From positions 1-64,000 of the forward strand of contig JAJEDB010000022.1 of the NCBI GenBank assembly GCA_022821725.1: a DNA stretch of 64,000 bases, in the 5' to 3' direction. Made by a program: the position numbers and the translations under genes. The notes beneath the pieces are model-generated. The model saw only the letters and a program-made list of their open reading frames with translations. It had not been told where the DNA came from and searched no databases. The stretch comes from Candidatus Poribacteria bacterium. GTDB lineage: Bacteria; Poribacteria; WGA-4E; WGA-3G. Shown in pieces: positions 58,983 through 64,000 of this stretch. The stretch's first letter is position 1, and the number at the start of each line of letters is the position of its first letter.

Positions 58983-59562
58983 GGTAGGTGTGTAGTCCTC
59001 TGAAATAAAAAATGACAGTCAACTTTCCCGCTTTCAGTATAACACATCCCAACTTCTCCTGCAATCTTCCGCGTAGAATGTTGTGAGTTTCAGAGTATTC
59101 AGAGTAAAATCGGAAAAAGGGTGGGTTTGAAAAAAGGTGTAAACATAGACTATGACTGGGTCTTCAGCGGTTTTGAGAGGCAATTTCAAAAAAGTTACTC
59201 TGAAAATGAAGATTAAGATCAGTCATTGCTGACTTTGACTATAAATACTTGTTAGGAGCATGTCTTTTCACGGAAGCTTCACGGAGTTTTTTACGGACGT
59301 AGGTGTGCCGTGGGTCGCCAAAACGCAAAATACCGCTTCTCCGTAAAAAAACAAACGTGAAAATATAATCAACTTATAGTAAACCTAAAATCTGAATGGT
59401 TTTGTCATCTTTTAGGGTCATTCAATTGTTAAATTGTCTGAATCGCGGATTACACGGATTATGCGGATTACGCGGATTTTTAAATCTTGCTCTTCAGAAC
59501 CTTTATGAAATTTGGAGAATTTCATGGAGAATTGAATGGCTCCGTCCCAAATGCCTTATAAT
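58983..59562. other. intergenic region with repeat debris
   Basis: No gene is visible. At 59370-59410 there is a TATAGTAAACCT word like a family C end, and 59441-59481 holds tandem CGGATTACG-like words. The rest is AT-rich without clear signals. Confidence 0.4.
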
Positions 59563-59591
59563 TTGACAACGCATCATGAATATATTATACT
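59563..59591 (+). promoter_or_regulatory. sigma-70-like promoter of the toxin-antitoxin remnant
   Basis: TTGACA (59563-59568) and TATACT (59586-59591) with a 17-bp spacer. A second TATACT follows at 59595. The direct repeat could include an operator. Confidence 0.65.
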
Positions 59592-59606
59592 GATTATACT
59601 GAAGGT

Positions 59607-59678
59607 ATGCAAATCACCGCCAGAGAGGTTCGAAACTATATCACACCAAACGGACATGAACACGGAAACTTTACTTAA
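59607..59678 (+). pseudogene. truncated HigB/RelE-type toxin start
   Basis: An ATG with GAAGGT upstream opens a 23-residue frame beginning MQITAREVRNYITPNG, which resembles the first residues of HigB/Gp49-like RNase toxins. It then runs out of frame into the antitoxin start (HEHGNFT, stop). The rest of the toxin (about 80 residues) is missing, apparently by deletion. Family recognition rests on this short piece. Confidence 0.5.
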
Positions 59679-59982
59679 GCAAACGACCAGTTTTAGAGAT
59701 GACCTTCTGAAAGACCTCGCAGACATAGAGTTCGCGATGTACTATTTGGAAGCAGCCCTATCAGACTATAAAGAAGATGGTAATACAGAAGCACTCTGGA
59801 CAGCCCTGTATGATGTTGTAGCGGCACAGGGCGGAATTGGAAAACTTGCTGAAAGAGCAAAGGTGAATCCTGAGCAGATCAACGATATACTCGTCTCTAA
59901 ACAGGAGCCGCGCTTAGATAATTTGCAAAACATTCTTTCCGGACTCGGATTTCAGATTCGCTTGGAATTTGCCGAAAGCTAA
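59656..59982 (+). CDS. HigA-type antitoxin, toxin partner lost
   Basis: This 108-residue protein starts at the ATG at 59656. The sequence SFRDDLLKDLADIEFAMYYL, followed by ALYDVVAAQGGIGKLAERAKV and EPRLDNLQNILSGLGFQIR, matches the addiction-module antidote family related to HigA with a Cro-like HTH. Such antitoxins bind their own operator and neutralise a RelE/HigB toxin. Here only a stub of the toxin remains upstream, so it is an orphan. It is first in a run of three antitoxin-like genes. Confidence 0.8.
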   Translation: MNTETLLKQTTSFRDDLLKDLADIEFAMYYLEAALSDYKEDGNTEALWTALYDVVAAQGGIGKLAERAKVNPEQINDILVSKQEPRLDNLQNILSGLGFQIRLEFAES

Positions 59983-60041
59983 CCCGTAACACCCGCAGCT
60001 TACACCGGATCCTTCGTTCCTGGATGAACTTCGACCTAAAT

Positions 60042-60278
60042 ATGAAGACAGATAAAACAATCACACAGGATGAACTCCGTCCAGAATATGATCTGAAAAA
60101 GTTGCGAGTGCGGAAGTTTGGTCCTGCGCGTAAGCAGTTCGGTAACTTTATCGAGTTAGAACCTGATGTCGCTGCAGTATTTCCGGATGCAGTGCCTGTT
60201 AATGAGGCACTGCGATGTCTGCTCCAAGAATACAAAGATGACGGCACAGCACTACCTCACATAGATGATGGCACTTAA
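60042..60278 (+). CDS. small antitoxin-like protein
   Basis: This 78-residue protein starts at the ATG at 60042. It shows TQDELRPEYDLKKLRVRKFG and the ending VNEALRCLLQEY. The layout resembles small proteins that pair with BrnT-like or other toxins (ribbon-helix-helix type), but no toxin is next to it. A Shine-Dalgarno sequence is weak. It lies between two other antitoxin remnants. Confidence 0.55.
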   Translation: MKTDKTITQDELRPEYDLKKLRVRKFGPARKQFGNFIELEPDVAAVFPDAVPVNEALRCLLQEYKDDGTALPHIDDGT

Positions 60279-60677: not shown

Positions 60678-61841
60678 CTATCCAATCTCTTTATCCAATT
60701 CTTCCTGACTCATCTCCTGGACAAATTTAGGCGTAATTTCGGAGGCTTCTCCTTCTTCAAAAACCCCCATTTCAAACGCGCGCATCAGGGCATTACGACA
60801 CCGCTTATTCACGTCTCTCGGTGTTCCCCGTTGCAAATTAGACAGAAGTGCCCGAAGTGCTTCCTCTGTAAACGGAAAATAGGGTGTTTTGGGTTTTTCT
60901 TGGGGTCTGTAGTGACAGAGAAGCTCACGGACATATTGCAGCAGCTCTTCTTGATCTTTCACTTCATGAAAGAAAATCTGTCGGGTAATCCGATCCGTGA
61001 GATAACCTCCGAGAATCAGTTCAATTTCTTCATATTCCTCTGGCGAGGTAAGCGTGAAATTCATGAAAAGTGTGAAGAAATAAGGAAGTCGATCTACGAG
61101 TTCACGCAATCCCTGTCCGAAAGGACGATATTGTGGTGGTGTAAAATAGATGAAATTCTCCATTTCATCTATCCATAGACAGAATCGATTGTGCTGAGTT
61201 ACATCAGAGGAGTCAGATAACCCCGTAAGACATTGAAAAACCCCTGCCAATACCCGAAAATAATCTTGTGTTTTTTCGATGTTTCGATTTAAGCCGAGTT
61301 TTCGCAATTCGGTAGTCGTGCATTTGCCAAGAAAGTAGGCATTTAGGAATGAACCAGCTCCTGCAGGAATTGGTGAACTTCCCAAATCAAGCAACGCTTT
61401 CACGAAGTCCCCACTCACCATCGTTTGGCGAAGATTTTGCTTAACTACATTCCGCCCAACAGATTCTACAATTTTGTTGACTGTCTCTCCTATCCGCTCA
61501 AGTCCAATCTGTTCCATGACCTCCAGATAAAAATCCCTTGCAGGATTCCCAGTCTCAGTAGGGGTCTGAACTCTTAAAACTTCTATATTCTGGACGCTCG
61601 GCGATGCTTCAGGAATATTTTCATCGCAACTAAAGAAAAGCGAAGCGTGTGTTTTGCCTCCGCCAATAGAACCTCGGCATAATATCACTTGCGTTGGTGC
61701 TGACGCTTTCGCTTCCCGGAAGACACTATTAAATTCGTTTCTCAGTTCTTCCAGACCTGCCCAAGTTGTCTGTTTGGGATTGGTCGGAGGTTTAGTTGCA
61801 AAAGGATTTTCCCGTAAACCTGCTAAATTCCAAATATCCAT
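60678..61841 (-). CDS. AAA-type ATPase of a probable defence operon
   Basis: This 387-residue P-loop ATPase starts at the ATG at 61841 (MDIWNLAGLRENPF); upstream ATGs overlap the preceding gene. Walker A is GSIGGGKTH (about 57-65) and Walker B RFCLWIDEMENF (about 219-230). A C-terminal winged-helix-like part has PFTEEALRALLSNLQRGTPRDVN, as in ORC/Cdc6-like ATPases. Such ATPases occur in BREX- and phosphorothioate-linked systems. It lies 10 bp after the winged-helix gene and is divergent from the DUF4007 gene, which suggests a common system. Confidence 0.78.
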   Translation of the reverse strand: MDIWNLAGLRENPFATKPPTNPKQTTWAGLEELRNEFNSVFREAKASAPTQVILCRGSIGGGKTHASLFFSCDENIPEASPSVQNIEVLRVQTPTETGNPARDFYLEVMEQIGLERIGETVNKIVESVGRNVVKQNLRQTMVSGDFVKALLDLGSSPIPAGAGSFLNAYFLGKCTTTELRKLGLNRNIEKTQDYFRVLAGVFQCLTGLSDSSDVTQHNRFCLWIDEMENFIYFTPPQYRPFGQGLRELVDRLPYFFTLFMNFTLTSPEEYEEIELILGGYLTDRITRQIFFHEVKDQEELLQYVRELLCHYRPQEKPKTPYFPFTEEALRALLSNLQRGTPRDVNKRCRNALMRAFEMGVFEEGEASEITPKFVQEMSQEELDKEIG

Positions 61842-61851
61842 AAGTTTTCGG

Positions 61852-62985
61852 TTAGGTTGGAAAAAAAATAAGATATGACTCATTTTCACGGTGGGAAAAC
61901 CGGACGGCATACCGCGTATCAGGCTCTTTAGAAAACATATCTAAATCTGCCTGGAGTTCCTCAAGGTTCGCCGCGATTCCGTTATCCGTGATCAGAAGGA
62001 GTACCATATAAATGAGTGCCGGATACAAAGAAATTTTTGGGGTCGATGTACTCCGAAGCGTTTCAAAAGCCTGAAAAGTGAGTTTGTAAAGCAGCTCTTT
62101 TCTCTCCAACTTCTGTATCTCTGTCCATTGTCGATCAATTGTGCCCACATGTATTTCCGTCCATTGTCGATCAATTGTGCCCATAAGTATCTGTCCAGCA
62201 ATGCCAAAGAATTGCTTCCGCAACCACACTGAACTTGTGTGAAAAACCTGGGTTTCTTGAATTTTCGGAAGAGACTGAGAAAACTGGATCCCCATTTCTG
62301 TTAATTCGGAATGTCTCTTTCCACTATTCTCAATTGAGACCAAACCGAGGTCAGCCAACCAATGAATTCGCGGCGGCACGATATTTTCAATAGAACGTTT
62401 TGTTCCCTTTTTCCAATGTGCCACTCGATTCCGGGCTGCCAAGATGTCACGTGCTACCGACGCTTCCGCTGTCAACATGCGGGCTTGCAATTGCTGAAGA
62501 TAAAACGTTGGGAAAGCGTTTTGCAAATCGGAAAGAGATTGAGAACCGCCTGCAACTAACATCCGAATAACTGTGAGAAGTTGATCGCTGTCCTTCACCA
62601 AAAGCCAATATAGATACGCGCAGCGTTCAGCATCAGTCAGTTCAAATGGATTGTGACCAGGAACCCAGCGAAGAAAAGGAAACAATGGTTTTCCAAATCG
62701 AGTCACACGGCAAGCACCAGCGATTCGGCCTATAAGCCCCATCGAAACAACGAAGTTAGTGTATCGTCTTGGAGCAGCTTGCCCGCGTGTTGCTTTAATA
62801 AATCCCTGCTGATTCGCGTAACCCATCAAATCTCTCTCATGACTGAGGCTCCATTTTTCAAGTCGAGTATAGAGCACAGATTCACTTAGCGTTTTATGCT
62901 CAAGCAATCGTAGAATTGCAGAAACATAGCCGAGACGGCGAACAAGCGTGTTAATCTCTGTGATCCCAACTTCGTATTTAGGCAT
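61852..62985 (-). CDS. putative winged-helix protein with internal 36-bp duplication
   Basis: This 377-residue protein is of unrecognised family. The N-terminal half has helix-turn-helix-like patterns (LLEHKTLSESVLYTRLEKW and GYANQQGFIKATRG) and RVTRFGKPLFPFLRW. A middle region (IHWLADLGLVSIENSGKRHS) looks like a second winged helix. A 12-residue unit GTIDRQWTEI(H/Q) is duplicated in tandem, with 36 bp of near-identical DNA at about 62115-62186. It is the first gene of the divergent operon, with the ATPase 10 bp downstream. DNA binding is inferred only. Confidence 0.65.
   Translation of the reverse strand: MPKYEVGITEINTLVRRLGYVSAILRLLEHKTLSESVLYTRLEKWSLSHERDLMGYANQQGFIKATRGQAAPRRYTNFVVSMGLIGRIAGACRVTRFGKPLFPFLRWVPGHNPFELTDAERCAYLYWLLVKDSDQLLTVIRMLVAGGSQSLSDLQNAFPTFYLQQLQARMLTAEASVARDILAARNRVAHWKKGTKRSIENIVPPRIHWLADLGLVSIENSGKRHSELTEMGIQFSQSLPKIQETQVFHTSSVWLRKQFFGIAGQILMGTIDRQWTEIHVGTIDRQWTEIQKLERKELLYKLTFQAFETLRSTSTPKISLYPALIYMVLLLITDNGIAANLEELQADLDMFSKEPDTRYAVRFSHRENESYLIFFPT
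62115..62186. repeat. in-frame 36-bp tandem duplication
   Basis: The word TCCATTGTCGATCAATTGTG occurs twice, 36 bp apart, inside the winged-helix gene. The copies keep the frame. Confidence 0.8.
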
Positions 62986-63133
62986 TTGGTAACCTGCATG
63001 GCGATGGCAATGCTATGAAACTGAAAACGAAAAAAGAGCGTATGACACATTATCTGGGGGTTTTATTCAATTAACGATATCACAGAAGTGTGGGAAACCC
63101 TCTTAACCACGGGCTACTGCAACCGACAATAAA

Positions 63134-63162
63134 AGCATACCAGATTTTCCCAAAAATGTCAA
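63134..63162 (-). promoter_or_regulatory. sigma-70-like promoter of the ATPase operon
   Basis: On the minus strand: TTGACA (63162-63157), 17 bp, TATGCT (63139-63134). The leader would be about 140 nt. It is back to back with the promoter at 63367. Confidence 0.5.
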
Positions 63163-63366
63163 AAAATATCCCGAATCTCAGCGAATCCGCGAATAGATGA
63201 TAAATAGGCCTTGACTTTTTTAGGTTCATTTAGTTTTCGTAATTCTGGTTGACTTGTGGCGGAAGTCACAAGGTGGAGTTCACTCCTACAACGATGGGTC
63301 TGGAATTGGAGTGTTTTCGCTTAAGTATTTCCCTTCAGACGGAAAAACTGAATAGCCTTAATTTTT

Positions 63367-63396
63367 TTGACATATTCTTCACATATAAGGTATAAT
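63367..63396 (+). promoter_or_regulatory. consensus promoter of the DUF4007 gene
   Basis: TTGACA (63367-63372) and TATAAT (63391-63396), both perfect, with an 18-bp spacer. The ATG at 63404 is 7 bp after the -10, so the mRNA is leaderless or nearly so; no ribosome binding site is visible. Confidence 0.75.
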
Positions 63397-63403
63397 AAGT
63401 AAT

Positions 63404-64000
63404 ATGGAGAATCTTTCAACTACTGAACACACAACTTCACCATATCGAAAAAATCCTTCTTTTTCGGGCCACCAGACCTTCCCGTTTCGTTACACGTGGT
63501 TGAAAAAAGGCGTGGATGCGGTGAGAGATAAATCAAACATTTTTACAGAAGATAATGCTCCAGTTACCTTAGGGGTTGGTAAAAATATGGCACATTCCAT
63601 CCGTCATTGGTGTTTAGCTGCCGACCTTATCGAAAAAATTGAGGATGAGTCTGATCCTCGCGATGGATTTAAGGCTACTGATTTCGGCGAAAAAATTTTT
63701 GACGACCCAGAGGGATATGATCCCTATCTTGAAAATCCAGCGACCTTGTGGTGGATCCATTGGCAGATCGCAACGAATATGGAACGAGCATCCACATGGT
63801 CTTGGGCTTTTAATTTCCTCAATTATCCAGAGTTTACACGAGACTCCTTAACTAAGGCTCTCATGGATTGGATAAAACATGAAAAAAAAATAAAAAGGCA
63901 GCCTTCCGAAAATACGATCAAAAAGGATGTCAACTGCTTTTTCCGAACATATTGTCTTTCGCATTCACCAGAAGCCGCAATTATTGAAGATACGTTTGAT
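63404..64000 (+). CDS. DUF4007 family protein (SspB-like), 5' part
   Basis: The frame is open from the ATG at 63404 to the window edge (199 codons, no stop). Signatures are FSGHQTFPFRYTWLKKG (about residues 20-36), LGVGKNMAHSIRHWCLA (about 56-72), a polar ENPATLWWIHWQIA block and SENTIKKDVNCFFRTY. These match DUF4007. As I recall, this family includes SspB, the nickase of the SspABCD DNA phosphorothioation system, and is also found beside PAPS-reductase-like genes. The C-terminal catalytic part lies beyond the window. The gene is divergent from the ATPase/winged-helix operon. Confidence 0.85.
   Translation, partial: MENLSTTEHTTSPYRKNPSFSGHQTFPFRYTWLKKGVDAVRDKSNIFTEDNAPVTLGVGKNMAHSIRHWCLAADLIEKIEDESDPRDGFKATDFGEKIFDDPEGYDPYLENPATLWWIHWQIATNMERASTWSWAFNFLNYPEFTRDSLTKALMDWIKHEKKIKRQPSENTIKKDVNCFFRTYCLSHSPEAAIIEDTFD

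Follow-up and report, generated by a model that had tools for sequence, protein, structure and literature searches.

Gene content at the contig end

The window, a 64,000-nucleotide stretch of DNA from a Candidatus Poribacteria bacterium, comprises positions 1-64000 of a 69,086 bp contig, and the remaining 5 kb of that contig was read as well. At the window edge, the initial annotation had described a DUF4007 gene cut on the + strand together with winged-helix (wHTH) and ATPase ORFs on the - strand, and all three were found where it had placed them (Table 1). The DUF4007 domain matched Pfam PF13182 at 1.3e-60 for the truncated part in the window and at 1.2e-89 for the full-length product. Since sspC and sspD follow this gene in the order sspB-sspC-sspD with overlapping ends, the proposal that it encodes SspB (PADLOC 1.3e-98) was borne out, and the PAPS-reductase-like gene expected past the window is sspD. 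We considered SspC as an identity for the divergent ATPase and rejected it because the true SspC is the 1133-aa product encoded downstream of SspB. Based on gene content, the locus is thus confirmed as a complete sspBCD single-strand phosphorothioation (PT) module, which is predicted to introduce sulphur into the DNA backbone.

Table 1. Features at the window edge and in the adjoining end of the contig
Feature	Position	Strand	Description	Basis
AAA+ ATPase	60678..61849 (ORF 60678-61910)	-		alignment with 9 relatives, 43-90% identity
Deletion junction, CTTATGGATAT next to TTGGAATTTAGC	61830..61850 (approximate)	-		comparison with L081
wHTH protein	61852-62985	-	377 aa; first gene of divergent operon	alignment, AF2 model
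Tandem duplication inside wHTH gene	62114..62192	-	36 bp, in-frame; absent from relatives	alignment
Divergent intergenic region wHTH/sspB	62986..63403		promoter-like sites on both strands	consensus matches only
Promoter-like site	63162-63134	-	TTGACA-17-TATGCT	consensus match only
Promoter-like site	63367-63396	+	perfect TTGACA-18-TATAAT	consensus match only
sspB (DUF4007)	63404 to window edge at 64000, gene end 64366	+	320 aa	Pfam, PADLOC
sspC	contig 64359-67760, beyond window		3' of sspB; 1133 aa	PADLOC E=0
sspD	contig 67753-68607, beyond window		3' of sspC; 284 aa	PADLOC 1.6e-116
105-aa ORF	contig 68639-68956 (L002:8640-8957)			resemblance to GIY-YIG-like protein

The cysteine desulfurase or SspE-like gene that the initial annotation had proposed to look for downstream did not appear: no desulfurase lies between the window end and the contig end, which is reached ~480 bp after sspD, and none of the ORFs tested at contig 59.5-69.1 kb gave a PADLOC match to SspE, SspF, SspG or SspH. 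Neither PglZ nor BrxL was seen up to the same end. Elsewhere in the genome, the SspA profile gave two strong matches (2.4e-154 and 8.6e-153), which show a desulfurase and not a dedicated SspA, as the profile also matches all control genomes. In Vibrio anguillarum, IscS serves the Ssp genes (PMC8092258). In relatives, a GIY-YIG-like protein is encoded 3' of sspD, and the 105-aa ORF that follows sspD here is similar to its N-terminal part; the ORF stops short of the GIY-YIG motif and is probably truncated. In the intergenic region, 7 bp separate the end of the sigma-70 consensus on the + strand from the annotated sspB ATG, by which sspB would be either leaderless or starting further downstream.

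The divergent wHTH and ATPase genes

The ATPase carries a Walker A motif (GSIGGGKTH) and a Walker B motif (CLWIDE), and its longer ORF, which overlaps the wHTH gene, probably does not mark the real start. In the AF2 model of the wHTH protein (pLDDT 78), helix-helix-wing units are found at residues ~193-228 and ~292-374. Neither protein received a family assignment in Pfam, PADLOC, NCBIfam or PHROGs. When the wHTH model was compared with PDB folds, there was no significant match, and SspB and DndG were absent among the matches listed. We also considered the wHTH protein as an SspB paralog or a triple wHTH of the SspB/DndG/FokI type and rejected this relationship, the hhalign probability being 1.4 over 37 columns. 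A sequence search of the PDB returned only weak AspA matches for the wHTH protein and none for the ATPase. That the wHTH protein reads PT or DNA is a guess.

Pairwise dN/dS values between the window and relatives were ~0.13-0.24 for the two genes, indicating purifying selection averaged over time, including the time before the deletion described below, and therefore compatible with a recent relaxation. Considering this selection together with the co-occurrence of both genes in relatives, the pair is not a product of chance. Both genes are open in the window, and having been under past purifying selection they may have another role there, independent of a nuclease. Next to the pair, the initial annotation had noted toxin-antitoxin debris, for which we found weak support in a match to the dnstrm_HI1420 antidote family (HTH) at window 59536-59982, at 8.6e-6 and below the curated cut-off. 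An 84-aa ORF with no assigned family adjoins this antidote-type gene, the two together lying at window 59536-60278.

A PIN-fold gene completes a triplet in relatives

The wHTH gene and the ATPase gene were each found in 11 of 85 genomes searched from the phylum, in largely overlapping sets, and other genomes also carry them next to DUF4007/SspB, a recurrence that the initial annotation had proposed to check. The two genes do not form a true pair; in relatives, a third gene of ~210-240 codons sits between them, giving the conserved order wHTH-PIN-ATPase, and it is this gene that is deleted in the window. Gene calls in the relatives came from a simple longest-ORF script, so that start codons there are approximate. 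The product of the middle gene opens on the motif D(T/A).(S/A)L, and GE and LTD motifs are present as well. Its AF2 model is confident (pLDDT 86), and the nine best PDB matches were all of PIN/VapC type, with probabilities of 0.75-0.99 and E-values above 0.01. The acidic residues D7, E43, E95 and D119 are conserved apart from one D119N copy, the Pfam PIN_4 match was marginal, and the PDB sequence search gave no match. Resting on fold and motifs, the middle gene appears to encode a PIN-fold nuclease. Neither PIN nor the diverged triplet copies matched the SspE/F/G/H or DndF/G/H models of PADLOC.

The main split is congruent among the ATPase, PIN and wHTH trees. Copies linked to Dnd genes group with the Ssp-linked copy of G005, a member of another Poribacteria family, and the remaining Ssp-linked copies form a second group, a topology that under midpoint rooting points to one or more changes of PT partner. 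In wider samples, the ATPase was found in one of 386 genomes from the phylum of Pseudanabaena, in two of 396 Acidobacteria genomes (one of them distant) and in one of 399 genomes from the phylum of a Gammaproteobacteria MAG, where the match is L081 (VXNY01000010.1). The L081 contig shares an FGE-like flank and near-identical wHTH 3' DNA (153/157) with the Poribacteria locus and is probably a misbinned Poribacteria contig. Searches of plasmids and viral contigs with the ATPase confirmed nothing.

Deletion of the PIN gene in the window

Compared with L081, the window lacks 642 bp between CTTATGGATAT and TTGGAATTTAGC. The missing segment takes in almost the entire PIN gene as well as the original start of the ATPase. 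The window-side breakpoint was identical in alignments against five relatives. With a length divisible by three, the deletion is in-frame; both flanking frames stay open, and the ATPase frame now opens on the PIN start codon (ATG GAT ATT TGG..., M-D-I-W-N-L) at ~61841-61843 in + strand numbering. When the L081 segment was scanned for repeats, none joined the two breakpoints. The PIN model had no match in the window's genome, which is 91% complete, and it matched six of eight relatives used as positive controls, their best E-values being at most 4.8e-89. The other two, G074 and G028, likewise have no intact triplet. Judged from these sequences, the window genome would have lost restriction. The deletion is seen in one assembly, and the junction could conceivably be an error of assembly from short reads.

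Linkage of the triplet to phosphorothioation genes

PT genes adjoin all 12 loci that have an intact ATPase and readable flanks, and because loci from the same Poribacteria genus do not count as independent, the weight lies on the five arrangements and three phyla rather than on this count. Four genomes were left out of it: G055, whose intact triplet lies at the end of its contig, G028 and G027, with only fragments, and G074, with the wHTH gene alone beside sspB. In the window and in L056, L057, L058 and L081, triplet-type genes are divergent from sspB at a distance of ~165-420 bp. In L060 of G005, the wHTH-PIN-ATPase genes are followed by sspB 11 bp on, and in L084 (Acidobacteria) the order is sspB-sspC-sspD-wHTH-PIN-ATPase in one direction. 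The Pseudanabaena locus (L080/L089) reads sspB, sspC, sspD, sspF, sspG, sspH, triplet, sspA. Finally, in four Poribacteria loci (L062, L063, L064 and L065) the triplet is divergent from dndC-dndD-dndE. PADLOC identified these genes in L062; in L063, L064 and L065 they were assigned from the similarity of the dndC-like gene and a matching layout. The ends of the triplet genes overlap or nearly touch sspD in L084, sspB in L060, and sspH and sspA in L080. Given that the triplet adjoins both Ssp and Dnd genes, it pairs with both. On the short contig of G005, where sspB comes right after the triplet (L060:2323-4427), neither sspC nor sspD is present, and a second sspB, with sspC, lies on another contig (L122); SspB might belong to the triplet in this genome.

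Comparison with known systems

SspABCD with SspE or SspFGH (PMC8092258) shares with the present locus the same sspBCD family and the presence of an ATPase-bearing multi-gene partner beside sspBCD. The wHTH, PIN and ATPase proteins match no SspE, SspF, SspG or SspH model, however, and Pseudanabaena carries the triplet in addition to sspFGH. Assignment of the wHTH protein and the ATPase to SspF/G/H or DndF/G/H was rejected on the same coexistence and on the lack of a PADLOC match. The double-strand PT system DndBCDE with DndFGH or DndI is approached by the four Dnd-linked loci, in which the triplet copy is diverged; the triplet matches no DndF/G/H model, and the modification genes of the window are Ssp and not Dnd.

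A similar list of parts (AAA+ ATPase, wHTH and nuclease) is found in the 'HerA/FtsK capture' systems with an Orc/Cdc6 ATPase (PMC10853773), but the triplet has no HerA/FtsK gene and has PIN in place of an REase. In an acidobacterium (G496 contig 57, L093), sspBCD is faced by a gene set that looks like an Orc/Cdc6-HerA type of system beside Ssp, made up of two distant ATPase relatives (1.1e-22 for one of them), a HerA-like gene and an unassigned small protein. Type 4 BREX has in common with the locus DUF4007, a BrxC/SspC-like ATPase and a PAPS-reductase-like protein (PMC12839542). This assignment found no support, since SspC scored 1098 bits with the SspC profile against 639 bits with that of BrxC, and SspD scored 387 bits against 40 bits for BrxP. 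Neither PglZ nor BrxL was seen on the stretch that the contig covers.

PIN genes in the vicinity of Dnd and BREX loci are already listed as backup effectors (PMC10853773, PMC12839542). Our searches of open-licence main texts, including passages of these two papers, found no description of the wHTH-PIN-ATPase triplet, and an earlier listing is possible.

Interpretation of the locus

Taken together, we favor, with a probability of roughly 0.7, the reading that the locus combines an Ssp PT module with a divergent wHTH-PIN-AAA+ partner, which would be a PT-linked restriction or effector module whose nuclease has been lost here. SspBCD, with a desulfurase in trans, would put sulphur marks on self DNA, and the wHTH protein would bind DNA. 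The marked or unmarked state, or the fact that modification had failed, would be relayed by the ATPase to the PIN nuclease; once activated, the nuclease would cut nucleic acid belonging either to the invader or to the cell itself. Excision of PIN would disarm this effector arm in the window, where the modification, wHTH and ATPase genes persist. We infer the PT dependence, the nuclease activity and the choice between DNA and RNA as the PIN target. Whether wHTH-PIN-AAA+ goes further and constitutes an additional class of PT-dependent restriction module, with a PIN-fold restriction nuclease and swappable between Ssp (single-strand) and Dnd (double-strand), is evenly balanced in our judgement; the window would then represent a naturally occurring nuclease knock-out in which DNA may still be marked.

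The triplet could instead be a backup suicide effector at the edge of the PT locus, blind to PT, whose PIN fires as an RNase if a phage blocks the PT system. Many PIN-fold enzymes are RNases (VapC), and PIN genes bordering Dnd loci, in some cases on the other strand, are listed as likely suicide effectors (PMC10853773). That the nuclease has been lost more than once (window, G074 and G028) fits a costly toxin. This seems unlikely to us, since the triplet lies inside the PT operon rather than at its border in Acidobacteria and Pseudanabaena; a dedicated ATPase and wHTH protein also exceed a plain toxin, a point that the idea would survive if it stood alone. It is very improbable that the triplet is an independent defence module that merely happens to occupy the same defence island or integration site as PT genes, because all five arrangements in the three phyla include PT genes, be they Ssp or Dnd, and no match was confirmed on plasmids or viral contigs. 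That reading would account for the repeated position of the Poribacteria Ssp locus at one site (mutY, FGE-like gene) with accessory exchange, as well as for the weak TniB match of one ATPase copy (0.0077).

The gene pair left in the window might itself be functional, for example as a regulator and ATPase aiding SspBCD, with the deletion being adaptive, or the junction might be an assembly error. For both genes, the reading frame is intact and dN/dS in comparison with relatives is low, and the ATPase now neatly uses the start codon of PIN. Against this, PIN is kept between all other intact wHTH and ATPase pairs examined, and the dN/dS values reach back before the deletion, making these explanations rather improbable. 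The triplet is a concrete candidate partner for sspBCD that occurs with both Ssp and Dnd genes in three phyla, and the window copy, with PIN cleanly removed, provides a natural contrast for the role of each part. In a previous survey, 2,211 of 2,678 sspBCD loci had no recognised restriction partner, with undiscovered partners raised as one possibility (PMC8092258).

Accessory genes around Poribacteria sspBCD loci

The sspBCD loci of Poribacteria lie repeatedly beside one flank, composed of DUF1080-type, aldo/keto reductase, mutY and FGE-like genes, and exchangeable accessory genes are found on either side of sspBCD (e.g., L070, L071, L069, L098 and L120). These include an HNH protein (a cluster from 14 loci) and a DndB-like protein (18 loci), the latter often with a GIY-YIG-like gene. 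Furthermore, GmrSD-like proteins, a PLD-helicase with a DndD-like ABC ATPase, HATPase-type proteins, a type ISP enzyme and the triplet occur there, suggesting that this recurring site is a modular effector slot.
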